Assembly: GCF_003254745.1 (NCBI RefSeq)
Contig: NZ_QKXH01000008.1
Location: 62,001 to 126,000, forward strand
Source of the DNA: Flavobacterium aquariorum
GTDB lineage: Bacteria > Bacteroidota > Bacteroidia > Flavobacteriales > Flavobacteriaceae
Length of the DNA: 64,000 nt
Direction: 5' to 3'
Below, one piece after another: positions 3,822 through 24,395 of this stretch. A model generated the notes under the pieces. That model did no database searches. It was not told where the DNA came from and saw only the letters and a program-made list of their open reading frames with translations. Positions within the stretch are counted from its first letter, which is position 1, and each line of letters starts with the position of its first letter. The position numbers were made by a program, and so were the translations under genes.

Positions 3822-4217
3822 ATGATGAAAAGAGAAAATTCAAACAGAACACGCATTGTTGGGTTAAGGTTTACACCCGAAGAATATGCACAGATTGAGC
3901 GCAAATTTAGAGCAAGTACCTGCCGAAAATTAAGTGACCATATCAGAAGGCACTTATTTAACAAACCTATTGTGACCACTTATCGAAATCAGTCGTTAGA
4001 CGATTTTATTGAAGAAACAATTACGCTTACCAATGAACTAAATTCTATTGGAAACAACATTAATCAAATTGCTAAAAAGGTTAATACATTAAAACAAATT
4101 CCGGAATTTAAGGAACAGTTACTTCGCTTCGAATTTGAGAAAAAAATACTCTTTAATAAAATGGATGAAGTTAGAAACCATACTCAAAAAATATCAGAGT
4201 CATGGTTACAATTATAA
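3822..4217 (+). CDS. mobC: Plasmid mobilisation relaxosome accessory protein (MobC type)
   Basis: A 131-aa basic protein. The N-terminus RTRIVGLRFTPEEYAQIERKF (about residues 9-29) is the ribbon-helix-helix entry typical of MobC-like relaxosome proteins, followed by SDHIRRHLFNKP. The centre, LNSIGNNINQIAKKVN, is the signature helix of Bacteroidota mobilisation proteins. It should bind oriT and help the relaxase open the strand. Its end overlaps the relaxase start by 16 nt, so the two are translated together. ATG codons at 3822 and 3825 are equally possible starts. Confidence 0.85.
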   Translation: MMKRENSNRTRIVGLRFTPEEYAQIERKFRASTCRKLSDHIRRHLFNKPIVTTYRNQSLDDFIEETITLTNELNSIGNNINQIAKKVNTLKQIPEFKEQLLRFEFEKKILFNKMDEVRNHTQKISESWLQL

Positions 4218-7269: not shown

Positions 7270-8520
7270 ACCTATTGGGGATTATATCCAATTAGTGGAT
7301 GAACGCAACAAAGGATTAAAAATAACTTCATTATTGGGACTTAGTATTTCTAAACAATTCATAAAATCAGTTGCGAATACTATTGGCACTGATATGGAGA
7401 ATTACAAAATTATCCGTAAAAATCACTTTGCTTGTAATACAATGCAAGTTCGTCGTGATAAAAAAATGCCTGTAGCTTTATATTTAGAAGATGCACCTGC
7501 AATTATTTCACAAGCGTATCCGATTTTTGAAATCATAAATACAAAAGAATTGCTACCTGAATATTTAATGATGTGGTTTACTCGTTCTGAATTTGACCGT
7601 GAAGCTTGCTTTCATGCCGTTGGTGGTGTGAGAGGAAGCTTAGAATGGGAAGATTTCTGTGGAATGAAATTGTGCCTATCCCTTCAGTTGATAAACAACA
7701 AGAAATTGTTCGAGAATACAACATCATTCAAAACCGTATTGCCTTAAACAAACAACTCATCACTACACTAGAAGAAACTGCTCAGACTATTTACAAACAA
7801 TGGTTTGTGGATTTTGAATTTCCTGATGAAAAGGGAAAACCTTATAAAAGTAATGGAGGGAAAATGATTTGGTGCGAAGAATTGGAGAAGGAGATTCCCG
7901 TAGGATGGGAATATAACTACTTTGGTAATCTAATAGAAACAATTAATGGATATGCTTTCAAAAGTGAAGATTTTGATCTGAAAGGAATTTACCCAATAAT
8001 AAAAATTAAAAATATAAAAGCACCATATGTTTATATTCAAAGTGACACACAGTATTATAATAACAAAATTTCTGCCAATCTTCGAAAGCTAACTGCAAAT
8101 AAAGGAGACATTCTAATTTCGATGACTGGATCGGGAGCAAATCAATTAAATTCAGCAGTAGGTCAAGTCGGTAAGTATTATTATAAAGTAAAAGCATTAA
8201 TTAATCAAAGGGTTTGTAAGATACTACCAAAGCAAGATTTTTATAATGAATTTATTTTTCAATTTATTTCATCTCAAGACATCCAAACGGAATTATTAAA
8301 TGGTTCAACAGGTAGTGCTAATCAAGCTAATATTTCTCCTAACCAAATAAAAGATTTAAAAGTTTTGATACCAGATGAAAATACATTGAAAATTTATTCA
8401 AAAACAGCATCATCAATTGATAATTTTAAAAGTCTAGAAATGATAGATAAACTAGAAGAATTGAATATCTTATTACTTGCGAAAATGACAAAAGTTGAAA
8501 CTAAAATAGAGACAGTTTAA
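7253..8520 (+). pseudogene. hsdS: Type I specificity subunit HsdS, frameshifted
   Basis: Two overlapping frames make one HsdS. The first (from 7253) gives the N-terminal target-recognition domain up to EDFCGMKL. The second gives PIPSVDKQQEIV, the central conserved helix (LEETAQTIYKQWFVDFEF) and the second recognition domain starting IPVGWEYNYFG. The switch falls at TGTG (7671-7674): removing two bases (7673-7674) fuses the frames into a normal 421-aa HsdS. The ATG overlaps hsdM by 17 nt. It may be an inactivating indel, a phase-variable site or a sequencing error. The downstream half could still act as a half-subunit if it is translated. Confidence 0.85.
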
Positions 8521-9266
8521 TGAATGATGAATTAAAATATATTGATTCGTTAACTGATTTTGAACTAGTACAATACTTTCAAGATCATTTAATTTTACGT
8601 TCTACTGGAGGTGGTTTTAACGAAGATGCTTTTGTGAAGAGTAGAGATTTATTGATTTCAAATAAATCGATTTCTCATTTATTACCTAAGTGGTTAACAG
8701 TAAATAGAACAACGGATCAATTTTGGATGTTTATAAAAGCTCGTTATAGTACCTATCAGGAAAGAAGAGAATTTATTTGGGAAGAATTTAATTCTTTGCT
8801 TTCTTATCTTGAAACGGATAAAATATCACCATTAAATGAAACAATCGTTTTTAATGAATCCTATATTCATGCTTTATGGGAAAAAGCCATCGAAAGAAAA
8901 GAAAGTGATCCAGAAGGAGCTATTACTGCTGCTAGAACTTTGATTGAAAGTGTACTGAAATATATTCTTGATGAGCAATCAATTTCATACAACGATGGAG
9001 CGGATCTACCTGTATTGTATAAAGAAGTTGCAAAATCGTTAAATCTTGCCCCTGAACTTCATAACGAAGGTATCTTTAAACAAATTTTAGGTGGTATTAG
9101 TAGTGTTGTTACTGGCTTAGGAGCATTGCGAAATAAATTGGGTGACGCACATGGGAAAAGCAAAACGAATGTAAAACCGAGCGTAAGGCATGGTGAACTT
9201 GCTGTAAATTTAGCTGGTTCAATGGCGGTTTTTTTGTTTAAGAGTTATAAAGAAAAAAAAGAGTAA
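8520..9266 (+). CDS. Abortive infection family protein (Abi_C domain)
   Basis: A 248-aa cytoplasmic protein. The C-terminal half (about residues 125-245) matches the abortive-infection C-terminal family: AARTLIESVLKYILDE, then LPVLYKEVAKSLNLAPE, then FKQILGGISSVVTGLGALRNKLGDAHGK and HGELAVNLAG. The N-terminal half is unassigned. The family is linked with growth arrest after phage infection; its mechanism is not settled to my knowledge. The ATG shares one base with the hsdS stop (TAATG), so translation is coupled to hsdS. This suggests it acts as a guard of the restriction system. Confidence 0.85.
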   Translation: MNDELKYIDSLTDFELVQYFQDHLILRSTGGGFNEDAFVKSRDLLISNKSISHLLPKWLTVNRTTDQFWMFIKARYSTYQERREFIWEEFNSLLSYLETDKISPLNETIVFNESYIHALWEKAIERKESDPEGAITAARTLIESVLKYILDEQSISYNDGADLPVLYKEVAKSLNLAPELHNEGIFKQILGGISSVVTGLGALRNKLGDAHGKSKTNVKPSVRHGELAVNLAGSMAVFLFKSYKEKKE

Positions 9267-9312
9267 TTTTTTAATTAATTATAAATATTATTAAATTAGA
9301 AATTAAAAATAT

Positions 9313-10476
9313 ATGAAATATAAGTACCAATTAATATTACTAGCCGATAATGAAGCATTATTTGATAAAATTATAGCTTCATTAGCTACGAGGTTTGATG
9401 AGTTAAAACTTATTGGTGATCTATTAAAAATTATCACTATGGATAATATCACTGAATATTCAGGTGGTCAACCTGCCTATGTAATATATTCAGGCAATAA
9501 AAACAATTTAGATGATGGTGCTTTAGAGGCGCTTAAAAAGCAAAAAATTGATGGAAACACAATTCTTCCACTTTTTATAAATTCATTCGGTGACGAAATG
9601 CCTGATGAGTTAAGAAATCAAAATGGATTGCAATTCGATAATAACATAAATAGAATTTGTAATCTTGTTTTAGAAGGATTTGAATTGTTACGAAAGAACA
9701 GGAAAATTTTCATTTCATACAAACGAACGGAATCAAGTAATGTCGCAATTCAATTATATGAAGCTTTAGAAAAAAATAATTTTGATGTCTTTCTAGATAC
9801 TCATTCTATAGATAAAGGAGAAGAATTTCAAGAAGAATTATGGCATAGAATGACAGATTGTGATGTAATTTTAATGTTGAATACAAAGGATTTTTTGGAA
9901 AGTGAATGGTGTGGATATGAACTAGAAAAAGCCCATCTTAAAAGAATTGGAATCGTTCATTTAATTTGGCCCGATAATGATTTTCAGAATTTTGCGCAAT
10001 TAGCACATTCAATAAAATTAACGAACAGTGATTTTGACAAACCACTCTTTAGTGATTTAGCTAAAGGTAGACTAGAAATTGGAAAAGTAACGGAAACAAT
10101 AGATCTTATAGAAAGTGTTCGAGCGAGAAACTTAGCAGCAAGACAAGATGCTTTAATAACAGAATTTATCGAAGCTGCTAATTATAACAATATTGAAGTA
10201 AATTTACAATTTAGTCGATATATTACTGAAAATTTATCAGATGGAAAAAGACGAATTTATATTCCTACTATAGGAGTTCCTCAATCAATTAATTGTTTCA
10301 ATTCCGAAAAATTAATAGCAAAGATAGAAAAAGGAGAAATCGATTCTATCCATTTAATTTACGATGAAATGTCAATTAGAGACTATTGGCTAGAACATTT
10401 AGATTGGCTTAATAAATATCTAAAAATACAAACTATTAAGAAACTGAATTTTAATAAATGGTTTTCTACATTATGA
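9313..10476 (+). CDS. TIR domain protein with flanking unassigned domains
   Basis: A 387-aa protein. A TIR domain spans about residues 131-250: KIFISYKR (strand A), VFLDTHSIDKGEEFQEEL (BB-loop region) and SEWCGYELEKA, where E203 is the putative NADase glutamate. The first 130 residues form a separate alpha/beta domain and the last 130 are unassigned; either may sense a trigger. Bacterial TIR domains cleave NAD+ or make cyclic ADP-ribose signals. It opens the TIR/SLOG cluster, 46 nt after the Abi gene, and its stop overlaps the SLOG start in ATGA. Confidence 0.87.
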   Translation: MKYKYQLILLADNEALFDKIIASLATRFDELKLIGDLLKIITMDNITEYSGGQPAYVIYSGNKNNLDDGALEALKKQKIDGNTILPLFINSFGDEMPDELRNQNGLQFDNNINRICNLVLEGFELLRKNRKIFISYKRTESSNVAIQLYEALEKNNFDVFLDTHSIDKGEEFQEELWHRMTDCDVILMLNTKDFLESEWCGYELEKAHLKRIGIVHLIWPDNDFQNFAQLAHSIKLTNSDFDKPLFSDLAKGRLEIGKVTETIDLIESVRARNLAARQDALITEFIEAANYNNIEVNLQFSRYITENLSDGKRRIYIPTIGVPQSINCFNSEKLIAKIEKGEIDSIHLIYDEMSIRDYWLEHLDWLNKYLKIQTIKKLNFNKWFSTL

Positions 10477-11054
10477 AAAATATATTTTTATCAGCGAGTA
10501 TACCGTTGCCTGAAAGACATGCGAAGTATTATGAAACAGCCGACATTATCGCAATTAGAGAATCCCTAATTGCATTAACATCAATAGTTTTACCACATCA
10601 TAGAATCATATGGGGAGGACATCCTTCAATTACTCCCCTAGTTAATTATGTAATGGAAAAAATGAATTTAAATATCCAAGAACATGTAAAACTTTATCAA
10701 TCTTTATTTTTCAAAGATATTTTCCCAACAGACAATAACAAATTTGAAAATATTGAATTCACAGAAAACATGGGTGATATACATTCGAGTATTCAACGAA
10801 TGCGAGAACGAATGTTTTCTGAAAATGAATTTGCAGCAGCTGTTTTTATTGGAGGTATGGATGGAATCGAAGTTGAATATAAAATGTTTAAAGAGTTACA
10901 TCCGGAAGCTTTACTTTTACCTATCGCAAGTACTGGAGCAGCAACAAAAATTGTTTATGATAGTTTACTACCTGAACAATTCAAGGAAGAAAGGCTTCTC
11001 AATGATTATGGTTACACTAGTTTATTTCAAAAGTTATTAATTGATAAAATATAG
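10473..11054 (+). CDS. Stand-alone SLOG-superfamily protein
   Basis: A 193-aa protein beginning MKNIFLSASIPLPERHAKYYE. The pattern FLSAS, ETADIIAIRESLIALTSIVLP, IWGGHPSITPLV and AAVFIGGMDGIEVEYKMF is that of the SLOG cluster seen beside TIR genes, a Rossmann-like fold that binds nucleotide-derived ligands. In Thoeris ThsA a SLOG domain senses the TIR-made cyclic ADP-ribose isomer; here the domain stands alone with no SIR2 partner. I chose the start at 10473 because it overlaps the TIR stop (ATGA); a start at 10458 would only add five residues. A ligand-sensor role is inference. Confidence 0.8.
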   Translation: MKNIFLSASIPLPERHAKYYETADIIAIRESLIALTSIVLPHHRIIWGGHPSITPLVNYVMEKMNLNIQEHVKLYQSLFFKDIFPTDNNKFENIEFTENMGDIHSSIQRMRERMFSENEFAAAVFIGGMDGIEVEYKMFKELHPEALLLPIASTGAATKIVYDSLLPEQFKEERLLNDYGYTSLFQKLLIDKI

Positions 11055-11057
11055 ATT

Positions 11058-11519
11058 ATGCCTCGAAAAGTATTTTATAGCTTCCATTTTGACAATGATA
11101 ATTGGAGGGCTGGTCAAATTAGAAACATTGGTTCAGTTGAAGGCGACAAGCCAGTAAACGGAAATAAATGGGAAGAAGTAAAAAGTAAGAGTGATTCAAT
11201 TATTCAAGCGTGGATAGATGAGAATCTGAAAGACAAATCCTGTCTAGTTGTTCTAATTGGAGAAAAAACTAGTGAACGTAAATGGGTAAATTATGAAATC
11301 AAGAAAGCTTGGGAGTTAGGAAAAGCGGTCTGTGGAATTTATATTCACAAGTTAGAAGACTCTAACGGAAAACAATCTACAAAAGGAAAGAGATTATTAG
11401 CAAGCCATATTCCGGTTTTTGAATCAGAGTATTCTTCAAGTAGCTATGTATATGACGACATTAAAAATAATATAACAAATTTGGTTGAAAAAGCGATAAC
11501 AATTAGAAATCAATATTGA
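11058..11519 (+). CDS. ThsB-like TIR protein (DUF1863/MTH538 type)
   Basis: A 153-aa single-domain protein. The N-terminus RKVFYSFHFDNDNWRAGQIRN and the region KDKSCLVVLIGEKTSERKWVNYEI are characteristic of the small TIR proteins that include Thoeris ThsB. E80 in WVNYE fits the catalytic glutamate. Proteins of this group synthesise cyclic ADP-ribose-type messengers when phage is sensed. The gene follows the SLOG gene by 3 nt and its end overlaps the next frame, so it is part of one translated array. Confidence 0.85.
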   Translation: MPRKVFYSFHFDNDNWRAGQIRNIGSVEGDKPVNGNKWEEVKSKSDSIIQAWIDENLKDKSCLVVLIGEKTSERKWVNYEIKKAWELGKAVCGIYIHKLEDSNGKQSTKGKRLLASHIPVFESEYSSSSYVYDDIKNNITNLVEKAITIRNQY

Positions 11520-11524
11520 GAAGT

Positions 11525-12220
11525 ATGGGGAAAAATATTTTTGTTTCTTATAAATATGCAGATACTTTGGTTAATTCTTTAAGAAAAAGAGAATTTGCTT
11601 ACGTCAATGGACAGTTCATTACTAGAGATCGGTTAACTAGAGTAAGAGATTATGTTGATGAACTTCAATCTATTTTAGACGATGAAGATCATATTAATCT
11701 AGGAGAAAAGGATGGTGAAAGTTTAAAGGATTTCTCGGAAGGTTATATTCAATCCAGTTTAAAAGACAAAATATATAGAAGTTCTATAACCATCGTTATG
11801 ATTTCTAAAGGAATGGTAGAAAGATATTCTCCTGAAAAAGATCAATGGATACCTTGGGAAATTTCATATTCCCTTAAAGAAGTTACTAGAAATGATAGAA
11901 CAAGTCGAATGAATGCAGTTTTAGGAATTGTGCTACCCGATGAAAATAATTCCTATGAATGGTATTATACTGAAAATCCAGCATGCAATTGCACCTCACA
12001 TCATACCGATAAACTTTTTAATATTTTAAGTAGAAATATGTTTAACATGAAGAATCCAACAGAGTCTTCATGTAATGGCTTGATAATTCATCATGGAGAT
12101 TTCTCATTTATTAAAACAGTCAAATGGAGTGATTTCAAAAGCTACCCTAACACCTATTTGAACAAAGCTATTGAAATAAGAGAAGCAAAAGATAATTACA
12201 ATATAACCAAAACTGTATAA
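11525..12220 (+). CDS. TIR-like protein (DUF1863/MTH538 type)
   Basis: About 231 aa from MGKNIFVSYKYADTLV. An upstream ATG at 11516 would add MRS and overlap the previous gene; both are possible. The TIR-like fold shows as NIFVSYKY, SSITIVMISKGMVERYSPEKDQ and WIPWEISYSLKEVTR, with E112 (from this start) as putative catalytic residue. It has a longer insertion between strand A and the middle strand than the smaller neighbour, and a cysteine pair (ACNC) near residue 156. It is the third TIR gene of the cluster, 5 nt before the fourth. Confidence 0.78.
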   Translation: MGKNIFVSYKYADTLVNSLRKREFAYVNGQFITRDRLTRVRDYVDELQSILDDEDHINLGEKDGESLKDFSEGYIQSSLKDKIYRSSITIVMISKGMVERYSPEKDQWIPWEISYSLKEVTRNDRTSRMNAVLGIVLPDENNSYEWYYTENPACNCTSHHTDKLFNILSRNMFNMKNPTESSCNGLIIHHGDFSFIKTVKWSDFKSYPNTYLNKAIEIREAKDNYNITKTV

Positions 12221-12225
12221 TAAAA

Positions 12226-12807
12226 ATGAGTTACATAAACGAAAATCAACTTTCTCAATATAGAAATAGAACTAAAACATTCTCTGCTGATAATATTGTA
12301 AACTTAAATGAAAACGTATCTAGAGATAAAACAAAACCAATGATTTTTTTGTCTCATAAACATGATGAATTTTCTATGTTACAAGATGTTATAGCTTTTC
12401 TCAAACAAGAAGGAGTTGATGTATATGTAGATTGGATGGATAATGATATGCCCGCATATACTAATGGAGCAACCGCAGTTAGATTAAAAAATAAAATAAA
12501 ATCTGCCGATAAATTTATTTTAGTTGCAACTCCAGATGCCATTAACTCAAAATGGTGTAATTGGGAATTAGGTTTGGGCGATGCAGCTAAGTATATTGAA
12601 AGCATTGCATTATTCCCTATCAATAAAGCATCACAATCATTTAGAGGAGCAGAATATTTAAGAATTTATCCTTATATTGATTTTGAAGACGGAAGCAATA
12701 CATACAAAAATGGTCGTTATATCCCCAAAGGTTACTACGTAAAAACTCCAATTGATGCCGATACTGAAAATGTTTTACCTTTAAAAGAGTGGTTAAAAAG
12801 AAAATAA
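12226..12807 (+). CDS. TIR domain protein
   Basis: A 193-aa protein. After about 37 unassigned residues the TIR domain reads PMIFLSHKHDE, then LKQEGVDVYVDWMDNDMP, then KSADKFILVATPDAINS and KWCNWELGLGD, with E114 as the putative NAD+-cleaving glutamate. The WCNWE form is close to that of the first TIR gene of this cluster, while the second and third are of the ThsB type. It lies 5 nt after the previous gene and 1 nt before the membrane protein gene. Confidence 0.85.
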   Translation: MSYINENQLSQYRNRTKTFSADNIVNLNENVSRDKTKPMIFLSHKHDEFSMLQDVIAFLKQEGVDVYVDWMDNDMPAYTNGATAVRLKNKIKSADKFILVATPDAINSKWCNWELGLGDAAKYIESIALFPINKASQSFRGAEYLRIYPYIDFEDGSNTYKNGRYIPKGYYVKTPIDADTENVLPLKEWLKRK

Positions 12808-12808
12808 T

Positions 12809-13492
12809 ATGGACGATAAAACATTGAAACATTTAGAATTTATACAAAATACGATTAATCGTATGAGTACAAATTCATTTATAATAAAAGGTTGGGCAAT
12901 CACATTAGTAGGTATCATTTTAGGTTTAAATAAGCTTGAAGGAAATTATATATTTAAAAAATCATTCTATAATTTCCCTATAGAAATGGTAATTGTACTT
13001 TTAATCATATTCTTATTTTGGTTTATCAATGCTTATTTTTTACAGCAAGAAAGAAGGTATATATACATTTATTCTAAAACTATAGAACCATTTAATCCAA
13101 ATTCCCCAGGTTCTAATAATACTTTGATACTTGATATGAATTATAAGAATTACGATACGTCGCCGTCTATTTCAAGTAAACTTTATTATTGTATTTCAGC
13201 AGTTAGTGTTTTATGTGCACTTGTATCGTATTTTTTCTTTGATCAGGTAGTATTCAAAATCATTTTTACTGTCGTATTTGTATTAATTTCCTTATTTAAT
13301 ATAACGTATACTTTGCATAATAAATATTTATGTAATTATTGGGCTTGTTTTATGGGACGAACTTTAATTTCAGTTTATGGGACTATGATTGTTTTATTAC
13401 TATTGGCTAACCATTCAATGTTTAATATCGAATCAAAAATAAAATCTGAAAAAACTGAATGTGAGTGTGTTATTAAAAACAACAGTAAATAA
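12809..13492 (+). CDS. Multi-pass membrane protein embedded in the TIR cluster
   Basis: A 227-aa inner-membrane protein. A conserved cytoplasmic start, KHLEFIQNTINRMSTNSFIIKGW, leads into the first membrane segment (about 25-43). Further segments lie at about 54-76, at 128-170 (two in tandem) and at 188-205; the tail is hydrophilic. Proteins with this N-terminal pattern are common small conserved membrane proteins, and I know no assigned function. Being fixed between TIR genes at 1-2 nt spacing, it could be the membrane-damaging effector of the cluster. That is inference; no enzymatic motif is visible. Confidence 0.65.
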   Translation: MDDKTLKHLEFIQNTINRMSTNSFIIKGWAITLVGIILGLNKLEGNYIFKKSFYNFPIEMVIVLLIIFLFWFINAYFLQQERRYIYIYSKTIEPFNPNSPGSNNTLILDMNYKNYDTSPSISSKLYYCISAVSVLCALVSYFFFDQVVFKIIFTVVFVLISLFNITYTLHNKYLCNYWACFMGRTLISVYGTMIVLLLLANHSMFNIESKIKSEKTECECVIKNNSK

Positions 13493-13494
13493 AT

Positions 13495-14256
13495 ATGTTT
13501 ATAGGTTTTGAATTAAAAAATTTAAAAGAAGATAGTTTCAAAGGCTCTTTTAAAAAATATCTACAAATAGGTAAAAAAGATTTTGATGAGTATGAGTTAG
13601 AAATAAGTGAAACAATTAAAGAGTTCAGTGATACCGATGGAAGTATTGACGGAAATAAAATGCAATCTGCTTGGTTTCCTAAAATTGATGCTGATATTTT
13701 TCTATCGCACTCACATGCTGATAAAGACTTGGTTATTGCATTTGCGGGTTGGTTAAAAAATGTTTTTGATTTAAAAGTATTCGTTGACTCATGCATTTGG
13801 GGATATTCCAAAGTTTTGCAAAATATCATCGATGAAAAATACAGCAGAATTGCAGATGGGAAATATCATTATGATAAAGTTCTATACGCTTCTAGTCATG
13901 TTCACATGATGCTTAATACGGCATTAATGCAAATGATTGATAATTGCGAATGTATCATATTTCTAAATACACCCAATTCAGTTAAACCGAAAGAAGTTAT
14001 AAGTAAAGTCATTTCTCCTTGGATTTACTCAGAAATTGGAATGACAAAGCTAATAAAAAGAAAAAAAATCGACGAACATAGAATTAAAAAATTATTTGAA
14101 GGAACTAAAACATTCTCACATTTTGAGATTGAATATAATTTAGACACAGACCATTTAACGCAATTAACAATAACTGATTTAAATAATTGGAGAAAAAATT
14201 ATGCTGGAGCATCAGACAATGCTTTAGATTATTTATATCAATTAAAAATCACCTGA
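13495..14256 (+). CDS. TIR-like protein, fifth of the cluster
   Basis: A 253-aa protein. The fold starts at about residue 66: ADIFLSHSHADKDLVIAFAG, then LKVFVDSCIWG, then CECIIFLNTPNSV and SPWIYSEIGMTKL, with E180 in the W-x3-E position shared with the other four TIR proteins of the cluster. The N-terminal 60 residues and the 70-residue tail are unassigned. It has an unusually long insertion between the BB-loop strand and the central strand (about residues 103-150). It starts 2 nt after the membrane protein gene; the next gene follows after 87 nt. Confidence 0.75.
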   Translation: MFIGFELKNLKEDSFKGSFKKYLQIGKKDFDEYELEISETIKEFSDTDGSIDGNKMQSAWFPKIDADIFLSHSHADKDLVIAFAGWLKNVFDLKVFVDSCIWGYSKVLQNIIDEKYSRIADGKYHYDKVLYASSHVHMMLNTALMQMIDNCECIIFLNTPNSVKPKEVISKVISPWIYSEIGMTKLIKRKKIDEHRIKKLFEGTKTFSHFEIEYNLDTDHLTQLTITDLNNWRKNYAGASDNALDYLYQLKIT

Positions 14257-14343
14257 TCTAAGTTAAATCTTGAAATTAATAAAATTCACAGAAGTATAAC
14301 TAGAGAAAACATTTGGCGTTCCTAATTTAAATTAAAACAATTA

Positions 14344-16134
14344 ATGGCAAAATACAGCGTTCATCAACAACCAGTAGAAACTTTATTAAGTTGGATCAAA
14401 TCTGGCGACATTGCAATTCCTGAAATTCAGCGTCCATTTGTATGGAACAGCACTAAGGTTAGAGATTTAATTGATTCATTATATCAAGGTTATCCTGTTG
14501 GCTACATTATCACTTGGCGTAATCCGGACGTTAAATTAAAAAACGGGCAACTTTCTGCTGGAAAAAGAGTTTTGATTGATGGTCAACAGCGTATTACTGC
14601 TCTTACTGCTGCTATTGTAGGTCAGCGAGTATTGGATAAAAACTATAAAGAAACTACTATCCGAATTGCTTTTAATCCCATTGACGAAAAATTTGAAGTT
14701 TTGAATAAGGCAATCGAAAAAAGCTCCGAATGGATAGATAATATCAACCCAATTGTAAATGATGAAGTATCAATTTCGAAAGCTATTAAAAAATACATTG
14801 CCGATAATCCTAAAGCCAATGAGGATTTAGTTGAAGAACGGATAGAAAACTTAAAGCGTATCAAAACGAAACAAGTTGGAATTATTGAGTTAGATGCTGG
14901 TCTGGATATTGATACCGTAACTGAGATTTTTATCCGTATCAATCAGAAAGGAGTTGTACTAAGTAATGCAGATTTTGTTATGTCTAAAATTGCTTCAGAT
15001 GAAAAATTTGGAGGAAATACAATGCGCAAAATGATTGATTATTTCTGCCGATTATTAGTTGATAAAGGATTCAATAAACACATTCTAGATAACGACAGTA
15101 CATTTAGCCAATCCGATTTTTATAAGGAAATAAAATGGATGGCGACAAGTAGTGATGATTTATATGTTCCCGATTACATTGACATGTTGCGTGTGGCTTT
15201 CACTTTTAAATTTAGCCGTGGCAAATTCAGTGATTTAGTTGCCTTATTATCTGGGCGTAATTTTGAAAGTCGTTCCTATGATATTGAAATCGCAGAAGAA
15301 AGTTATGTCAAACTCTCAGAAGGATTATCCGCTTTTGTGAATCAAACCAATTACCAGCGATTTGTTATGATTATTAAATCGACAGGTTTAATTAGTAAGA
15401 AATTAATATCCTCCCAAAACAGTTTAAATTTTGCCTATGCCTTGTATTTAAAATTGCGTGAAGACGGCATGGGTGAAGCAGAATCACAAGGTTACGTAAA
15501 ACGTTGGTTGGTTATGAGTATGTTTATCGGTCGCTATTCGGGTTCTGCTGAATCACGAATAGATGAAGATATTAAGCAAATTAACGAAAAAGGTATAGTA
15601 GCTTATTTAACTCAAATGGAACAAGCTCATTTAGGTGCCGGATTTTGGGATTTCGGAATCATAAACGATTTAGAAACATCCAGTGTAAACAACAATGCTT
15701 ACAACTTATATTTAGCGGCACAAGTAAATAACAATACAGTGGCTTTTTTATCTAAAAGCATGAAAATTAGTAGTTTAATTGAACAACGAGGTGATGTACA
15801 TCATATTTTTCCAAAAAAATACTTGATGAACAATGGCTATCCTCAAAAGGCATACAACCAAGTTGCTAATTTTGTTTTTACAGAACAAGCGACTAATATA
15901 AAAGTGGGTATGCTCACACCTAAAGATTATTTGGATAAGGTAAAAGCTCAAATACAAGCTGGAACAAATGAAATCAGCACTTTAGATTCTGAAAATAGCC
16001 TGAAAGAAAACTTGATTAATAATGATATTCCAAGCAGTATTGAGGAAGCAAATCACTTGGCATACGAAGGTTTTTTAGAAGAACGTAGAAGATTAATGTC
16101 TAATAAATTAAAAGTCTATTACGAAAGTTTATAA
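14344..16134 (+). CDS. DUF262 (GmrSD-like) nuclease-family protein
   Basis: A 596-aa protein. The DUF262 domain occupies the first 200 residues with IPEIQRPFVWNSTKVRDLIDSLYQGYPVG split by short turns and the diagnostic IDGQQRITAL near residue 78. The C-terminal region holds a His-Me finger candidate, VHHIFPKKYL near residue 484, followed by ANFVFTEQATN. The layout resembles single-chain GmrSD type IV enzymes, which use NTP and cut modified DNA. Which modification it would recognise cannot be told. It sits between the TIR cluster and abiE in the same orientation. Confidence 0.82.
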   Translation: MAKYSVHQQPVETLLSWIKSGDIAIPEIQRPFVWNSTKVRDLIDSLYQGYPVGYIITWRNPDVKLKNGQLSAGKRVLIDGQQRITALTAAIVGQRVLDKNYKETTIRIAFNPIDEKFEVLNKAIEKSSEWIDNINPIVNDEVSISKAIKKYIADNPKANEDLVEERIENLKRIKTKQVGIIELDAGLDIDTVTEIFIRINQKGVVLSNADFVMSKIASDEKFGGNTMRKMIDYFCRLLVDKGFNKHILDNDSTFSQSDFYKEIKWMATSSDDLYVPDYIDMLRVAFTFKFSRGKFSDLVALLSGRNFESRSYDIEIAEESYVKLSEGLSAFVNQTNYQRFVMIIKSTGLISKKLISSQNSLNFAYALYLKLREDGMGEAESQGYVKRWLVMSMFIGRYSGSAESRIDEDIKQINEKGIVAYLTQMEQAHLGAGFWDFGIINDLETSSVNNNAYNLYLAAQVNNNTVAFLSKSMKISSLIEQRGDVHHIFPKKYLMNNGYPQKAYNQVANFVFTEQATNIKVGMLTPKDYLDKVKAQIQAGTNEISTLDSENSLKENLINNDIPSSIEEANHLAYEGFLEERRRLMSNKLKVYYESL

Positions 16135-16405
16135 AAATAAATATCAAGTTTCCTACTCCAAAAACTTGACAAAACAATTTCAAACACAAAATACCCAGTT
16201 TATTATACAAAAAACTTGACATTTTTATATCATTTAAAAGAATGGTATTGCGTTAAAATTGTTGTCTTTATCTTAGCGAGCTTCTATGAATATGTTTTCA
16301 CCTATATTGAGTTTGTTATGGAGGTGAGTAAAAAGTAAGTTATTAAAAAGCTTTGAACCGTATGTGGTTTTGGTAACCAATAAACATATAATACGTCTAA
16401 TGATA

Positions 16406-16446
16406 GTAATGCTTTAACTTTGACTATGTCAAAGTTAAAGCATTAC
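16406..16446. repeat. Perfect 19-bp palindrome upstream of abiE
   Basis: The arms gtaatgctttaactttgac (16406-16424) and its exact complement (16428-16446) are separated by three bases. There is no T-run, so it is a poor terminator. It lies 75 nt upstream of the abiEi GTG and 22 nt from a second palindrome, in the gene-free stretch 16135-16520. Its likely role is as a regulator binding site for the AbiEi autorepressor or a second regulator. The same gap also holds a repeated caaaaaacttgaca at about 16157 and 16208. Confidence 0.7.
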
Positions 16447-16468
16447 ATCGATTAATCAAAATAAAATT

Positions 16469-16505
16469 ATTATGTCACAAATATTTACTAAATTTGTGAC
16501 ATAAT
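16469..16505. promoter_or_regulatory. Perfect palindrome, candidate AbiEi operator
   Basis: The arms attatgtcacaaat (16469-16482) and atttgtgacataat (16492-16505) are exact, with a 9-nt centre, and end 15 nt before the abiEi start. AbiEi antitoxins of type IV systems repress their own promoter by binding inverted repeats in this position. Binding here is inference from place and symmetry. Confidence 0.65.
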
Positions 16506-16520
16506 TCTAAACAACAAACC

Positions 16521-17117
16521 GTGCAATCCTCACATAATCAAATAGAATTAAAGATTAAAAAATCATCTAAGGGTAAAATATTTTTCGCAGATGATTTTGT
16601 AAAATTCGGCTCGCCAGAGAATATTCGAAAGGTATTGTCACGTTTAGAAAAAGAAGGTTTGTTGGAGCGTTTGACCCACGGCATTTACTTAGTGCCTAAA
16701 AAAGATGAACTGCTAGGTACATTATATCCCACAACAGAGGAAATTGCGGTAGAGATTGCCAAGCGAGACAAAACACGTATTACCCCAACAGGAGCGTTGG
16801 CTTTATACCAATTGGGGTTATCAACTCAAATTCCGCTAAAAGCGGTTTATTTAACAGATGGAGCGCAAAGAATTATCGAAATTGGCAATCGTTCTATTCA
16901 ATTTAAAAAAACAGTTCCTCGCAATTTAGCCATTAAGGATCATTTATTGATGTTAATTGTTCAGGCTCTAAAAGAAATTGGTCAGCATAAAATTAATGAA
17001 AGCGATTTAGAAAAACTAAAGCCTTTTGCTTTGCAAGTAGATGGAGAGATCCTAAAATCTCAAAGTAAGTTTGCGCCAGTTTGGATACAAAAAATAATTA
17101 CAGAACTAAGAAATTAA
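16521..17117 (+). CDS. abiEi: Type IV toxin-antitoxin, antitoxin AbiEi
   Basis: A 198-aa protein with an N-terminal winged helix (IFFADDFVKFGSPENIRKVLSRLEKEGLLERLTHGIYLVPK split at its turn) and a C-terminal antitoxin domain (ITPTGALALYQLGLSTQIP, then YLTDGAQRII). This is the usual AbiEi layout. The protein represses its operon and counters the nucleotidyltransferase toxin without direct binding. The start is GTG at 16521, directly behind a palindromic operator candidate; no ATG lies at a sensible place. The toxin gene follows after 3 nt. Confidence 0.92.
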   Translation: MQSSHNQIELKIKKSSKGKIFFADDFVKFGSPENIRKVLSRLEKEGLLERLTHGIYLVPKKDELLGTLYPTTEEIAVEIAKRDKTRITPTGALALYQLGLSTQIPLKAVYLTDGAQRIIEIGNRSIQFKKTVPRNLAIKDHLLMLIVQALKEIGQHKINESDLEKLKPFALQVDGEILKSQSKFAPVWIQKIITELRN

Positions 17118-17120
17118 GCT

Positions 17121-18116
17121 ATGTGGGTACACCTTACGAAAGAGCAAAAACAAAATCTAATCAGACAAACAGCTGTAAAAACGGGTTTGCCTGATTATGC
17201 GGTTGAGAAGGATGCTTGGGTTTGTATTATATTGCAAGCTGTTTTTCAATCAAAATATGCTCCTCATATTATTTTTAAAGGAGGAACTTCCCTTAGTAAG
17301 GCTTACCAAATCATCAATCGTTTCTCTGAAGATATTGATTTAATAATTGATAAAAGTTTATTAGGTTTTGCAGCATTACCATCAAAAATGGCAATAAAGA
17401 GATTAAGAACAGCTTCGGGATCTTTTATTATAAACGAATTCCGAGAAGAGTTGATAAATCAATTAACACAATTAGGAATTGCATCGGAAACTTACACTAT
17501 CAAATACAACGACAAAGTAGATGACACCAGTGATCCCAATACATTAGAATTTTATTATGAGCCTTTAATAGAGAGTAATAATGCCTATATTCTGCCAAGA
17601 GTATTAATTGAAATGGGCGCTCGTTCTTTGACTGAACCTGCTGAGGAACGAGAAGTAATCTCATTTATAGACAGCGAATACGCACACCTTCCTTTTGCGA
17701 AAAAAGCAACAAAGGTAAATGTGGTCGTGCCAACACGGACTTTTATAGAAAAAGTGTTGTTGCTGCATGAAGAATTTTTAAAACCAATCAATCAAATACG
17801 AAGCGATCGTTTATCTCGTCATTTGTACGATATAGATAAGTTAGTAGATTCTGAATACGCAAAAATAGCGTATGAAGATCATTCTCTTTTTGAACAAATT
17901 GTAGCGCACAGAAAAGCCTTAACCCCATTACGTAACATAAGTTATGAATTTCACAAAAAGGATACTTTGCAAATAATTCCGCCTAATGAAATACTGAATG
18001 AGTGGGAGCAAGATTATAAAGCGATGCAGGAAAATATGATTATTGGAGATTCTAAATCTTTTCCTGATCTTTTAGAGAGAATGAAAGAAGTAATGAGAAA
18101 TTTTAAAACGAATTAA
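17121..18116 (+). CDS. abiEii: Type IV toxin-antitoxin, nucleotidyltransferase toxin AbiEii
   Basis: A 331-aa member of the AbiEii/AbiGii toxin family. The nucleotidyltransferase motif is clear: FKGGTSLSKAYQIINRFSED (about 52-71), followed by the metal-binding IDLII. A second conserved region, PRVLIEMGARSL, lies near residue 155, and RTFIEKVLLLHEE near 205. Relatives block growth by adding nucleotides to tRNA ends. All core motifs are kept, so the toxin is probably functional. hsdR begins 29 nt downstream, which suggests joint transcription. Confidence 0.93.
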   Translation: MWVHLTKEQKQNLIRQTAVKTGLPDYAVEKDAWVCIILQAVFQSKYAPHIIFKGGTSLSKAYQIINRFSEDIDLIIDKSLLGFAALPSKMAIKRLRTASGSFIINEFREELINQLTQLGIASETYTIKYNDKVDDTSDPNTLEFYYEPLIESNNAYILPRVLIEMGARSLTEPAEEREVISFIDSEYAHLPFAKKATKVNVVVPTRTFIEKVLLLHEEFLKPINQIRSDRLSRHLYDIDKLVDSEYAKIAYEDHSLFEQIVAHRKALTPLRNISYEFHKKDTLQIIPPNEILNEWEQDYKAMQENMIIGDSKSFPDLLERMKEVMRNFKTN

Positions 18117-21359: not shown

Positions 21360-21367
21360 TATATTTG
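21360..21367 (+). promoter_or_regulatory. Candidate -7 element for the deazaguanine operon
   Basis: TATATTTG at 21360-21367 matches the Bacteroidota -7 consensus TAnnTTTG, 40 nt before the first ATG of the four-gene operon. A T-run (ttttta) lies about 20 nt upstream where the -33 box belongs, but it is not a clear TTTG. It suggests transcription independent of hsdR. Confidence 0.35.
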
Positions 21368-21407: not shown

Positions 21408-21773
21408 ATGGGAAGTACAGGTTCGGGAAATTTTTCAGATTATAAAAGGAATATTGGTAATGCTGACCAAGGTGGTGATAGCGGTCAAGATAGATGTTCA
21501 AAAGCATTTAATTCTTCTCTTGAAGAAGTACAGACCTGTCAATATTTTACTAATCATGGTATAGTTCCTCCAATTGGAACGGAAGTTCATGTTAATTTCA
21601 TACGACCAAGACTTGCGGTTACTGATTCTAATGGCTTTTGTATTGGATATTTACCTACTAGTTTTAATTATTTAAAAGCATGTATGGACGATAATTTTAA
21701 TTACGAAGGAATTGTATCAAGTTCCTCAAATAATCCTTTACCATTTGTTTCCGTCGATATAGTACATATTTAG
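21408..21773 (+). CDS. Small protein with MGSTGSG N-terminus, first gene of the QueC-like operon
   Basis: A 121-aa protein with no family that I can name with certainty. It begins MGSTGSGNFSDYK, so Met removal would expose Gly2 on a flexible Gly/Ser tail. The body has GGDSGQDRCSKAF, a probable beta-rich part (GTEVHVNFIRPRLAVTD) and GYLPTSFNYLKACM. There is no signal peptide and no membrane segment. It is directly followed (0 nt) by the kinase-transferase gene. Its form recalls the glycine-starting partner proteins of QueC-like enzymes in other immune systems, which suggests it may be the substrate or carrier modified here. That is inference. Confidence 0.7.
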   Translation: MGSTGSGNFSDYKRNIGNADQGGDSGQDRCSKAFNSSLEEVQTCQYFTNHGIVPPIGTEVHVNFIRPRLAVTDSNGFCIGYLPTSFNYLKACMDDNFNYEGIVSSSSNNPLPFVSVDIVHI

Positions 21774-23096
21774 ATGGAAAAATTATGCATTATTGGTGAC
21801 ATTATAGTTGATGTTTCTTTAGGAGATAAAAACTCTGCTTTAAAAATGAGATTAGGTGGGATTATTCATTGTGCTAGAGCTTTGTGGGCTTCTGGTACTG
21901 AATATTCTTTAGCATATTTCGCACCAAAATATCTTAAAAGTCATATTGAGATTTTTTTAAAAGAATTAGGAGATCCAGAGCTTATTTATTTAGGAGAGGT
22001 TGAAAGCTCTCCATACGTAATGTTAATTAATGAGGTGAAGGAAATTGGTGATCAAGGATATGAATTCTTACTAAGAGAAAATTTAAAAATAAGTTATAAT
22101 GAAGGTTTGTTTAATGAACTCGATAAATTTTCAGAAATCCTAATCATATCAGGAAGTTACGATTTGCAAAAAGTTTTAAATTTATTAAGTTTAGATTGCC
22201 AAATCAGCATTGATTTTGCAAACAATATTGATAAATTAGAAGAAATTAGTGGCAAACATATTTATGAAACAATTTTTATATCTACATCTTCAAATTATTT
22301 TAAAAATTATTATAAAAACACAGGCTTATTTGAAATTTTAGATTTTTTCAATGATTTGAAACCAGTAACAAAAAAAGTAGTCCTTAAAGAAAATAGGGGT
22401 GGTAGTAGAGCATTAGAATTTTCGGCAGGTCAATTAATTTATATACCTTCGCAGACTCAACCAATAAATCATTCAGTTGGTGTTGGGGATGTTTACAATA
22501 GCATTTTTTTAAATCAGTCAAAAAAGTTTTCATTTGAAGAGAGCCTTAATTATGCTTCATGGATAGCAACAGAATATGCATTAACAACTTTTCCTGAAGA
22601 TTTTAAAAGAATGACTCAAAGAACTTTGAAAAGTCCTATTCAAGATTTAATGGCATTAGGAGGGCTCAAGCTTCCTTGGGAAAAGAGAAGCGAAATTAAT
22701 ATTTATATTGCTGCTCCTGATTTTGACTTTGAAGATACTAGCCTAATAGATTTATTAGACAATAATTTGAAATATCATAATTTTTGTCCTAGACGTCCTA
22801 TTAAGGAAAATGGACAGATGGAGAAAGATGCATCTTCTAATAGAAAGAATGAATTATTTCATAACGATATGGTTTTACTTAATCAATGTAAAATATTAAT
22901 TGCAGTACTTCTTTATAATGACCCTGGTACATTAATTGAAATTGGTTTAGCAGTAGAAAGAGGAATTCCAACTTTAGTATATGACCCCTATAAAATTGCC
23001 ACTAACTGCATGCTAACTCAAATTCCAGATTTATTATCATCTAGCTTGGATGAAATTATTTGTAAAACATTTGAAGTCTCACAAAAAATTATATGA
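21774..23096 (+). CDS. PfkB-family kinase fused to nucleoside 2-deoxyribosyltransferase domain
   Basis: A 440-aa two-domain protein. Residues 1 to about 290 are a PfkB/ribokinase fold: LCIIGDIIVDVSL, RLGGIIHCARALWASG, and SVGVGDVYNSIF, where D239 is the expected catalytic base. Residues about 308-440 are a nucleoside 2-deoxyribosyltransferase fold: NIYIAAPDFDFED, NRKNELFHNDMVLLNQCKIL and NDPGTLIEIGLA, with D365, D383 and E389 in the usual places. Together they suggest handling of a nucleoside or free base: exchange of the glycosidic bond plus sugar or nucleoside phosphorylation. The substrate is unknown. It overlaps the QueC-like gene by 4 nt. Confidence 0.85.
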   Translation: MEKLCIIGDIIVDVSLGDKNSALKMRLGGIIHCARALWASGTEYSLAYFAPKYLKSHIEIFLKELGDPELIYLGEVESSPYVMLINEVKEIGDQGYEFLLRENLKISYNEGLFNELDKFSEILIISGSYDLQKVLNLLSLDCQISIDFANNIDKLEEISGKHIYETIFISTSSNYFKNYYKNTGLFEILDFFNDLKPVTKKVVLKENRGGSRALEFSAGQLIYIPSQTQPINHSVGVGDVYNSIFLNQSKKFSFEESLNYASWIATEYALTTFPEDFKRMTQRTLKSPIQDLMALGGLKLPWEKRSEINIYIAAPDFDFEDTSLIDLLDNNLKYHNFCPRRPIKENGQMEKDASSNRKNELFHNDMVLLNQCKILIAVLLYNDPGTLIEIGLAVERGIPTLVYDPYKIATNCMLTQIPDLLSSSLDEIICKTFEVSQKII

Positions 23097-23737
23097 TAGA
23101 CATAAATATAGAAAAAGGGGTAATTTTAATGTCAGGAGGACTAGACTCTACCACTCTAGCCTATTATTTTATTAAAAATGAAATAGAATTTATACCACTA
23201 ATAATAAACTATGGTCAACATTGTTTTGAAACAGAATTAAATCGCTTAAAACAAGTTTTGCCTGTTGAATACATTGGAAAAATAGAAATTATTGACGTTT
23301 CTGACATTTATAAATATTCAACATCAAAATTTATAAAAGCTCCCGATTTGTGGAATGAAGAAGTTAATGCTGACGATTTATATATCCCCTATAGAAATGT
23401 TCTATTACTAACTATTGGGGCATCCTTTGCGAGGACAATGGGGATGGATAAAGTTTACTCGGCTTTTATAAATAGTAATCATGCAAAAGAAATCGATTGC
23501 TCCTCGAATTTTTTTGATAGTTTAGACGTTTTATTAGAAGAATATGGAGCTGTAAAAATTCTCATGCCATTTAGAAACTTTTCAAAATATGAAGTAGCTA
23601 AACTAGGAATTGATTTAAATGCTCCCATAGGAATAACATTTTCATGCCAAGCATCTCCAAATATACCATGTGGTGCATGCCCAAATTGTGTTGATAGACT
23701 AGATGCTTTGAAGCAAATCGAAAAAGAAAACATTTAA
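23093..23737 (+). CDS. QueC-like 7-cyano-7-deazaguanine synthase family protein
   Basis: A 214-aa member of the QueC branch of PP-loop ATP pyrophosphatases. The PP-loop LMSGGLDSTTLAYYF begins near residue 12. The zinc site is complete: C185, C193, C196 and C199 in CQASPNIPCGACPNC. YIPYRNVLLLTIGASFA and FINSNHAKEIDCSSNFF match conserved QueC blocks. Canonical QueC turns carboxy-deazaguanine into preQ0 using ATP and ammonia; QueC-like enzymes also occur in type IV CBASS and Qat immunity. No queD, queE or queF is in the window, so a dedicated immune or modification role is more likely than tRNA queuosine. The start overlaps the previous gene (ATGA). Confidence 0.9.
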   Translation: MIDINIEKGVILMSGGLDSTTLAYYFIKNEIEFIPLIINYGQHCFETELNRLKQVLPVEYIGKIEIIDVSDIYKYSTSKFIKAPDLWNEEVNADDLYIPYRNVLLLTIGASFARTMGMDKVYSAFINSNHAKEIDCSSNFFDSLDVLLEEYGAVKILMPFRNFSKYEVAKLGIDLNAPIGITFSCQASPNIPCGACPNCVDRLDALKQIEKENI

Positions 23738-23741
23738 TGTT

Positions 23742-24395
23742 ATGAATATTGAGAAACTAATTCACGCTAGAAAGCTTATAGATTTTATAGAAAATGAAAT
23801 TAATTTAGAGTTAATTCCATCAAATAATTGCCCATATGACAACCACATAGGTGCACTATTTACGGATATAATATTACAAGCAGGACTAAATTATAAACAT
23901 ATTGTATCTCCCAGAGTTAATAGCGTTTATCATAATTACCCTGAAGCCAATACAGTTAAAAACTTTTTCAACCTTATAGAAGCAGATGGTTTAGAGAATA
24001 TTATACAATGGAAACATGAAATCAAATTAAAAAGAATAATCGATTTAATAAATTTTTGTTTGAAAAATGAGATTGACTCTACTGAGGAACTGAAATTTTT
24101 TTTACTACAAGAAGACAATAAAAAAGAATTCTTATCTATTAATGGAATTGGTAGCAAAACTTATGACTATCTCCTTAAATTAATGAATGTTGATACAATT
24201 GCAGTTGATAGACATATATTCTCTTTTCTAGAAAAAGCAGGAATTGAAGCTAGAGATTATCATTTTTCAAAAGGAATAGTTGAATTTGCAGCTGACATAA
24301 TGAATGTTTCTAGACGTTCAATTGATTATAGTATTTGGACATATATGGCTTATACTGAAAAAAAAGGATCAAATCAAACCGTTTTGGAATTTTAA
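23742..24395 (+). CDS. HhH-GPD (OGG/EndoIII-like) protein
   Basis: A 217-aa protein. The helix-hairpin-helix FLSINGIGSKTYDYLLKL lies at about 130-147 and is followed by DTIAVDRHIFSFL. K139 and D156 fall where EndoIII and OGG1 have their catalytic lysine and aspartate, so a glycosylase/lyase reaction is possible. The four-cysteine iron-sulphur loop of EndoIII is absent, as in OGG proteins. Small HhH-GPD proteins of this kind accompany QueC-like genes in type IV CBASS. It is the last gene of the operon, 4 nt after the QueC-like gene. Removal of a modified base, or recognition of one, is inference. Confidence 0.78.
   Translation: MNIEKLIHARKLIDFIENEINLELIPSNNCPYDNHIGALFTDIILQAGLNYKHIVSPRVNSVYHNYPEANTVKNFFNLIEADGLENIIQWKHEIKLKRIIDLINFCLKNEIDSTEELKFFLLQEDNKKEFLSINGIGSKTYDYLLKLMNVDTIAVDRHIFSFLEKAGIEARDYHFSKGIVEFAADIMNVSRRSIDYSIWTYMAYTEKKGSNQTVLEF

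Follow-up and report, generated by a model that had tools for sequence, protein, structure and literature searches.

What is the function of an operon that joins a small glycine-start protein, a PfkB-type kinase fused to a nucleoside 2'-deoxyribosyltransferase (NDT), a QueC-like enzyme, and an HhH-GPD (OGG-like) protein? We investigated this question for the genes at 21408-24395 in a 64,000-nt stretch of Flavobacterium aquariorum (NZ_QKXH01000008.1, positions 62,001 to 126,000; genome of 4.38 Mb in 57 contigs), hereafter the window. An earlier note on the window had assigned the four genes to these families, and all four open reading frames (ORFs) were recovered on the plus strand. The reading set out here, which we hold about as readily as we doubt it, is that they would make up a third defence system based on QueC-dependent conjugation to a protein N-terminus, one with a HIRAN-fold acceptor and an NDT-kinase, beside those of Cap9 and QatC.

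The four-gene order is a real conserved unit and chance is excluded, because the same order (small protein, PfkB-NDT, QueC, HhH) recurs in 65 complete loci with tight median intergenic gaps (-4, -4, and 0 nt, with starts picked by script). Species genomes contributed 51 loci to the scans with PfkB-NDT and viral contigs 15; one of these, L062, is a chance match of 72 residues and was dropped. Plasmids of Proteus, Neotabrizicola, and Cupriavidus carry full-length relatives of the fusion (tblastn). With the window and plasmid loci counted, an all-frame profile search placed PfkB-NDT in 70 loci. The 65 complete sets among these 70 become 64 of 69 when L004 and L013, which come from one genome, are counted once; L065 and L036 share their small protein, and some viral contigs are possibly prophages of genomes already listed. 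Three of the five incomplete loci are ended by the contig (L056, L067, and L068) and two have an interrupted PfkB-NDT: in L057 its frame enters other sequence near residue 347 and neither QueC nor HhH was found, and in L077 the small protein is also cut at the contig end. After removal of redundancy, 50 loci remained below 90% identity and 37 below 75%; in the latter, the pairwise distances of the four genes co-vary (r = 0.66-0.94, a level that none of 999 permutations reached). When viral contigs were scanned with QueC, the small protein, and HhH in turn, 17, 16, and 16 contigs were returned. Within 3-kb flanks the partners were present wherever the sequence continues, except for a lone HhH in L158; contigs that end before a partner (L125/L137, L132/L139, L134/L153, L145, L150, and L152) were judged in part. 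The earlier note had staked its proposal on co-occurrence of the four families, and this is what the neighbourhoods gave, in 65 of 70 loci.

The set is found in Bacteroidota, Pseudomonadota, and viral contigs, and is sparse: 2 of 395 Bacteroidota genomes carry it, the window genome counted, as do 2 of 385 Alphaproteobacteria, a sample centred on a genome already known to have the operon, which is one of the two. A same-genus relative, Flavobacterium sp. HBTb2-11-1, has it as well, and there are copies in Cupriavidus necator (pENH92) and Tistrella mobilis. Annotated phages gave no PfkB-NDT match, and a blastn search ('distant' setting) with the Proteus operon gave no homologue of the exact set in the E. 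coli collection. The lone HhH homologue of the viral contig L158 (2914-3588) retains the Lys/Asp pair and lies near lysis-like genes (by eye); it could have an unrelated role or be a phage counter-measure.

The tail tip, MGS(T/S)GSGxFSDY, is the most conserved part of the small protein. Column entropy averages 0.59 bit over residues 1-12 vs 1.83 over residues 31-121 (48 sequences), and in the predicted structure residues 1-30 are disordered (predicted local distance difference test, pLDDT, about 50; by block 52, 47, and 57), the model being confident past residue 30. A Met-Gly start is present in 68 of 69 profile hits (67 Met-Gly-Ser and one Met-Gly-Thr), the remaining one being cut by the contig end; Gly2 is found in 37 of 37 small proteins below 75% identity, and Asp11-Tyr12 in 37 of 37 of this first set. 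Starts were chosen by a pattern (Gly2, Ser or Thr at position 3, and Asp-Tyr within 14 residues) that might have been circular; it is not, because only one of the 69 profile-hit loci, the contig-cut one, lacks such a start. Some loci have in-frame upstream starts, and the start call rests on conservation. A conserved flexible end with a constant second residue would have the look of an N-terminal acceptor, and its glycine is the most likely conjugation acceptor by analogy with two published systems. In the accessible text of the papers describing them, Cap9 and QatC work by N-terminal conjugation to a Gly-start partner adjoining the QueC-like enzyme, the arrangement seen here (PMC13279940, PMC11996544). 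The MGTS end of QatB and the MGGS end of the type IV CBASS CD-NTase (CBASS, cyclic-oligonucleotide-based antiphage signalling system) form a conserved motif that the Met-Gly tail parallels, and a G2D substitution there blocks defence (PMC13279940). By structure match, the folded body beyond the tail belongs to the HIRAN fold: human HLTF HIRAN was the top Foldseek match to the model (E = 4e-4, probability 1.0) and superposed with Z = 9.5 (VIA; root mean square deviation, rmsd, 1.9 over 83 residues), the structural-genomics protein 3K2Y with Z = 11.5, and HamB of Hachiman with Z = 7.5.

The complete PP-loop and four-cysteine zinc site that had been read in the QueC-like protein are there (SGGLDS and C185/C193/C196/C199), and PADLOC QueC matches at 7e-28. 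Invariant in all 37 aligned proteins are the loop (S14-S19), Y40, Q42, R101, N127, S128, N129, H130, E133, D135, and the four cysteines; the pattern C(x)7CxxCxxC occurs in 68 of 69 loci, and lengths range from 204 to 216 aa (script-chosen starts). D135 aligns to Asp117 of Cap9, which reads the Watson-Crick edge of the base, according to the accessible text (PMC13279940). The best PDB match of the profile is Cap9 (9NTO, 1.9e-16), with canonical QueC practically level (5.6e-16 and 2.1e-13). In the QueC tree, which was built without Cap9 and QatC, the set forms its own clade (100/98), apart from the only four canonical QueCs found and 12 of 13 sister proteins (see below), L090 having been removed by a motif filter. 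From the invariant loop, cysteines, and D135, together with a glutamate at position 133, we expect a working ligase that activates a carboxylate and whose base pocket is altered.

Kinase and deoxyribosyltransferase were also correctly placed in one chain. The model of the fusion is confident (pLDDT 94.8). Residues 1-296 resemble sugar and nucleoside kinases of the ribokinase family (Z about 24-26; with the E. coli ribokinase, Z = 25.6 at an rmsd of 3.0 over 273 residues), and residues 308-433 align to solved deoxyribosyltransferases (best 6EVS, 2.5e-8) across the aspartate, glutamate, and Asn-x-Met positions. The NDT half is matched by PF05014 (2.6e-11); the kinase half is unmatched by Pfam in the window protein itself, and a PfkB match is found for 10 rows of a PfkB-NDT set that has 41 rows in all and includes four from the sister set. 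K205, G236, G238, D239, Y311, D365, D383, E389, and N411 are invariant in 35 of 35 sequences, and we take E389 to be the NDT nucleophile. That an enzyme turning base into nucleoside is joined here to a nucleoside kinase suggests that a single chain takes a base to a nucleotide. The window HhH protein has no Pfam match and a weak one to PADLOC OGG (5e-4), which matches 29 of 37 members (best 2.6e-8). The lysine/aspartate pair pointed out in the earlier note, the catalytic pair of bifunctional glycosylase/lyases, is present in 37 of 37 members (K139 and D156), and in alignment with solved OGG/AP lyases the Asp is matched, and in 9O00 also the Lys.

Is the operon a member of a described system? 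Like type IV CBASS it has a QueC-like enzyme for which, among solved structures, Cap9 and canonical QueC are relatives of much the same closeness, a Met-Gly partner with a flexible N-terminus, an HhH protein matched by PADLOC OGG, and a defence context. It differs in that the partner has a HIRAN fold and is not a CD-NTase, NDT-PfkB stands in place of the TGT-like Cap10, the stacking Tyr is replaced by Glu, and cyclic-nucleotide machinery is lacking. With qatABCD it shares a Gly-start protein with a disordered tail beside a QueC-like enzyme and an altered base pocket, residues of which are also changed in QatC in the accessible text of PMC13279940. Its 214-aa enzyme, however, lacks the long N- and C-terminal extensions of QatC (about 400 aa), its acceptor body is HIRAN where that of Qat is helical, and NDT-PfkB and HhH take the place of the QatA NTPase and the TatD nuclease QatD. 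The earlier note had seen no CD-NTase, TGT, QatA-type ATPase, or TatD; none of the four operon genes is one, and PADLOC named none among 19 window proteins (four from the operon and 15 from the island upstream, with hsdS, the first transposase-like ORFs, and genes 3' of 24395 outside the scan), a model for each being unconfirmed. We therefore rejected direct membership in CBASS or Qat, whose key partners were not named among these 19. From canonical QueC, with which it shares the PP-loop, the four-Cys zinc site, and the Asp of the YPDC motif, the enzyme differs by Glu for Tyr in that motif and by a score below the TIGR00364 cut-off (97.2 vs 150.3 bits), and the operon differs by the lack of queD and queE; canonical QueC is otherwise missing from the sampled genus.

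Among 40 other genomes sampled from the window genus, no full-length QueC was found, the PF06508 matches being short and weak (best 6.5e-7) or absent. The operon is therefore not part of the queuosine pathway in this genus. An ordinary queuosine operon was rejected by this survey, the TIGR00364 score, and the lost Tyr; the outcome that the earlier note had named as fatal to its proposal, an ordinary queuosine or salvage operon, is likewise opposed by the sparse spread, that score, and the lost Tyr.

What would be the source of the base? The substrate of Cap9 is named, in the accessible text on that enzyme, as 7-carboxy-7-deazaguanine (CDG), an intermediate of the cell's queuosine route. We surveyed 43 host genomes (42 of the 50 genome-locus hosts plus the window genome) and found PTPS/QueD in 29, canonical QueC above the cut-off in 20, and QueE (matched at E below 1e-10) in 25. 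Some QueEs escape the QueE model, since G420, G422, and G433 combine PTPS with canonical QueC but give no QueE match below 1e-10. Thirteen hosts, eight without a metagenome-assembled genome (MAG) or uncultured label and five that are MAGs or uncultured, have neither PTPS nor canonical QueC, and none gives a QueE match better than 3e-5. PTPS occurs in 7 of 61 genomes in the family of one such host, and the operon seems, from gene content, not to depend on the PTPS pathway there. Because 13 of 43 hosts lack a detectable route, CDG made by the host probably does not serve as the substrate in general; it is a possible one in some hosts and contradicted in these 13. It is doubtful, in our judgment, that the base is CDG itself, and, judging by the genes of the hosts, it may be something other than CDG of host origin. 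Hosts with and without the pathway have the same altered pocket in the enzyme. The proposal that the operon makes a deazaguanine-type base is not supported in the form given in the earlier note: the operon has no QueD or QueE, 13 of 43 hosts have no detectable precursor route, and the pocket is altered. The window genome has two PTPS genes and a QueE-like match (4.8e-20), and it and several Bacteroidota hosts have QueD- and QueE-like genes without a canonical QueC above the cut-off.

A parallel set exists. Four Bacteroidota loci, first seen as weak hits, carry a small protein that begins Met-Gly or Met-Ser, a PfkB-NDT, a QueC-like enzyme, and an HhH protein, with a nitroreductase-like gene in two of the four, and a second search of 395 genomes gave six sister-set genomes, the first four included. 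The sister enzymes correspond to QueC cluster 4, which, with its PfkB-NDT neighbour, is read as purine salvage in the accessible text of PMC13329287, whose main text by term search has no mention of HIRAN or OGG. Most loci of this kind share the layout of Gly/Ser-start small protein, PfkB-NDT, QueC-like enzyme, and HhH/OGG, and one sister HhH protein (L088) is matched by PADLOC OGG at 5.5e-80; the archaeal locus L093 showed no HhH gene. They differ from the window set in forming a separate QueC clade (99/96, vs 100/98 for the window set), in their mostly Ser second residue (Gly in L005 and Cys in L093), in often keeping Tyr or His before the base-motif Asp, in often having nitroreductase and Dam methylase genes, and in a PfkB-NDT 18-21% identical to the window type. 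The cluster 4 signature CH(x)5CxxCxGCxK is present in most sister loci (e.g., L006, L007, and L087; L005 and L008 differ) and absent from the window set, which has C(x)7CxxCxxC in 68 of 69 loci. The claim that the set is not a known system stands insofar as the HIRAN small protein and the four-gene set are undescribed in the literature searched, of which coverage is partial; it falls short in that cluster 4, a sister clade of QueC next to PfkB-NDT, has been published as purine salvage.

The sister loci (L005-L008, L087-L095, and L116) mostly have Met-Ser-Gly-rich small proteins, often with nitroreductase-like and Dam methylase genes, and are hosted by E. coli, Pseudomonas, Citrobacter, and cyanobacterial and haloarchaeal replicons. 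Sister-type PfkB-NDT is present in 37 plasmid records, including Rhizobium, Pseudomonas, Synechocystis, and haloarchaea (five neighbourhoods viewed). Of 5,426 E. coli genomes, 22 are matched by the sister set of Citrobacter, and in 18 of these the match spans at least 80% of the query. Next to the one E. coli sister locus viewed are a dGTPase annotated as anti-phage and a pair of genes for an ATP-dependent nuclease and UvrD.

A role in defence is likely, in view of the places where the operon is found: defence islands, plasmids, and viral contigs. We compared the nearest two ORFs per side with 132 of 136 ORFs from 20 PTPS regions of other such hosts (PADLOC at 1e-10, up to 600 residues per ORF). 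In all, 178 PADLOC families were matched among 132 flanking ORFs vs 29 among 132 control ORFs, an excess that supports a defence context and is not a rate, because the families overlap heavily and one control region holds Dpd genes; that control ORFs were picked by a slightly different rule counts against it too. Among the matches listed for flanking ORFs are dGTPase (7), AriA (6), AbiLi (3), and PtuA and PtuB (2 each), and a Cyclase match occurs in 2 of the 132 at other loci. Portal proteins are matched by six, and head-maturation proteases by two, of the 69 ORFs around the operon in 12 viral contigs (some near-identical), and therefore prophage-like elements carry the operon. Neighbours of these two kinds lie within some of the viral contigs L063-L076.

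From the gene set, its order and conservation, the folds, the catalytic residues, and the defence and mobile context, we infer the reactions that follow, and with them modification, excision, and anti-phage activity. Removal of Met1 from the small HIRAN-fold protein would expose Gly2 on the flexible tail. The QueC-like enzyme would then use ATP to activate the carboxylate of a base whose Watson-Crick face resembles that of guanine, and join it to the Gly2 amine, a step that we consider probable. NDT would add deoxyribose to the base and PfkB would phosphorylate it, so that the small protein ends in a nucleoside or nucleotide; whether they would act on the conjugate or its base is for us evenly balanced against their not doing so. 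Finally, and tentatively, the HIRAN body might bind DNA ends and the HhH-GPD protein recognise or excise the tag, which would direct or report an attack on invading DNA; this last step is one we are inclined to doubt.

Several results weigh against this reading. The lack of a detectable host pathway in 13 of 43 genomes is the strongest of them as far as plain 'deazaguanylation' is concerned. The stacking Tyr of QueC and Cap9, essential in the canonical YPDC motif, is Glu133 in 37 of 37 proteins (placed opposite the Tyr of 2PG3 and 3BL5; the printed Cap9 alignment begins one residue later). Asp-Tyr at positions 11-12 is not universal, since two divergent viral contigs (L149 and L150) read Asn-Tyr and Thr-Tyr, with the Met-Gly-Ser start kept and the tail Asp replaced. 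The small protein misses the cut-off of Pfam PF08797 (HIRAN; 12.5 vs 24.7 bits), which lists 2 of 50 family members at E up to 0.5. Agreement of gene distances is also weaker among 12 Bacteroidota loci (r = 0.44-0.70).

The 13 hosts without a detectable CDG route, and the presence of PTPS in 7 of 61 genomes in one such family, would fit a base sensor: an HhH-GPD glycosylase, then NDT/PfkB, would release or convert an unusual base from the DNA or nucleotides of a phage, and QueC would load it on the HIRAN protein as an alarm, so that the host need not make the base. The Lys/Asp pair and the same altered pocket in hosts with and without the pathway agree with this. Set against it are the Cap9 substrate, CDG from the cell's own queuosine route in the accessible text, and the chance that HhH is a mere binder; we regard such a sensor as unlikely. 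Alternatively, the QueC-like enzyme might make a free base or nucleotide, as canonical QueC does, for NDT/PfkB to turn into a nucleotide for DNA or a toxin, the small protein being a DNA-binding subunit only. This follows the normal base-to-nucleotide logic of NDT plus kinase and uses the retained QueC core motifs, but it leaves the conserved Gly2 and tail tip unexplained, and the canonical Tyr is lost and TIGR00364 reaches 97 of the 150 bits needed, which makes it quite improbable.

The published reading of QueC with PfkB-NDT as purine salvage (PMC13329287, in the text accessible) would extend to an ordinary purine or queuosine salvage operon here. Against this we note occurrence in 2 of 395 Bacteroidota and no full-length QueC in the 40 other genus genomes sampled, the defence islands, plasmids, and viral contigs, a score below the TIGR00364 cut-off, and a Gly-start HIRAN protein and HhH in every complete locus, so that we give salvage scarcely any weight. 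In 7 of 38 non-redundant loci (L018, L024, L027, L031, L034, L045, and L060) a dGTPase gene lies no more than about 1 kb from the operon, which raises another prospect, a deoxynucleotide-starvation or toxin-antitoxin device in which NDT/PfkB deplete or corrupt deoxynucleosides and the tag is the on-switch. The product of dGTPase is deoxyguanosine, a possible sugar donor for NDT. A tblastn search with one dGTPase found none in the 20 control regions. Yet dGTPases are common among defence genes, their orientation and side vary, and three of the seven loci (L027, L034, and L060) are one lineage; we consider such a device very unlikely. Genes for dGTPase also lie near the sister set of E. coli and Citrobacter (L092 and L116).

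If the conjugation reading holds, nucleobase-protein conjugation as an immune strategy would be wider than the two published cases, as the operon suggests; the HIRAN-fold protein would be a new candidate acceptor, the NDT-kinase pair could act on the base after or before conjugation, and the published 'purine salvage' label would be open to a testable correction. A bolder version, which we advance as a speculation with the chances well against it, is a protein with a nucleotide N-terminus: QueC would place a base other than host CDG on Gly2, NDT would supply deoxyribose and PfkB phosphate, HIRAN would hold the protein-borne nucleotide at DNA ends, where it could be ligated into, cap, or mark invading DNA, and HhH-GPD would remove or read it. 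If true, this would be a protein-nucleic-acid hybrid of a new kind, different both from what protein-primed replication yields and from the deazaguanylation of CBASS.

Table 1. Features of the operon in the window
Feature	Position	Strand	Evidence
Possible Bacteroidota -7 promoter element TATATTTG	21360..21367	+	string search; weak; no -33 element shown
Small HIRAN-fold protein, 121 aa, N-terminal tail MGSTGSGNFSDY; proposed conjugation substrate (Gly2)	21408..21773	+	
Codons 1-12, disordered tail tip, most conserved	21408..21443	+	pLDDT, column entropy
PfkB-type kinase fused to NDT, 440 aa	21774..23096	+	
QueC-like PP-loop enzyme, 214 aa; proposed N-terminal ligase	23093..23737	+	PF06508 5e-34
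HhH-GPD (OGG-like) protein, 217 aa, Lys139/Asp156 pair	23742..24395	+	PADLOC OGG, alignment

The junctions between the genes of Table 1 are, in order, 0 nt, a 4-nt overlap, and a 4-nt gap before the HhH gene, so that the abutting or overlapping arrangement given earlier holds for the first two and not for the last. The TATATTTG element sits 40 nt before the first start codon and was sought from TAnnTTTG, which we take to be the Bacteroidota -7 consensus. As the earlier note had it, the operon follows hsdR in a defence island: hsdR ends at 21337, 70 nt upstream, and the window upstream holds type I restriction genes and AbiJ-like, five TIR/ThsB-type, HEC-05-type, and AbiEi/AbiEii genes (PADLOC), the five TIR/ThsB-type genes lying between those of AbiJ, HEC-05, and AbiE type at 8520-18116. 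ORFs downstream of the operon look by eye like ordinary genes. At 7241-8520, hsdS is split over two frames and the specificity gene looks interrupted, with hsdM and hsdR open. A gene pair at 3822-5476, neither member matched by PADLOC and the second without a PDB match, resembles by eye a MobC/relaxase mobilisation pair and suggests that the island was mobilisable.

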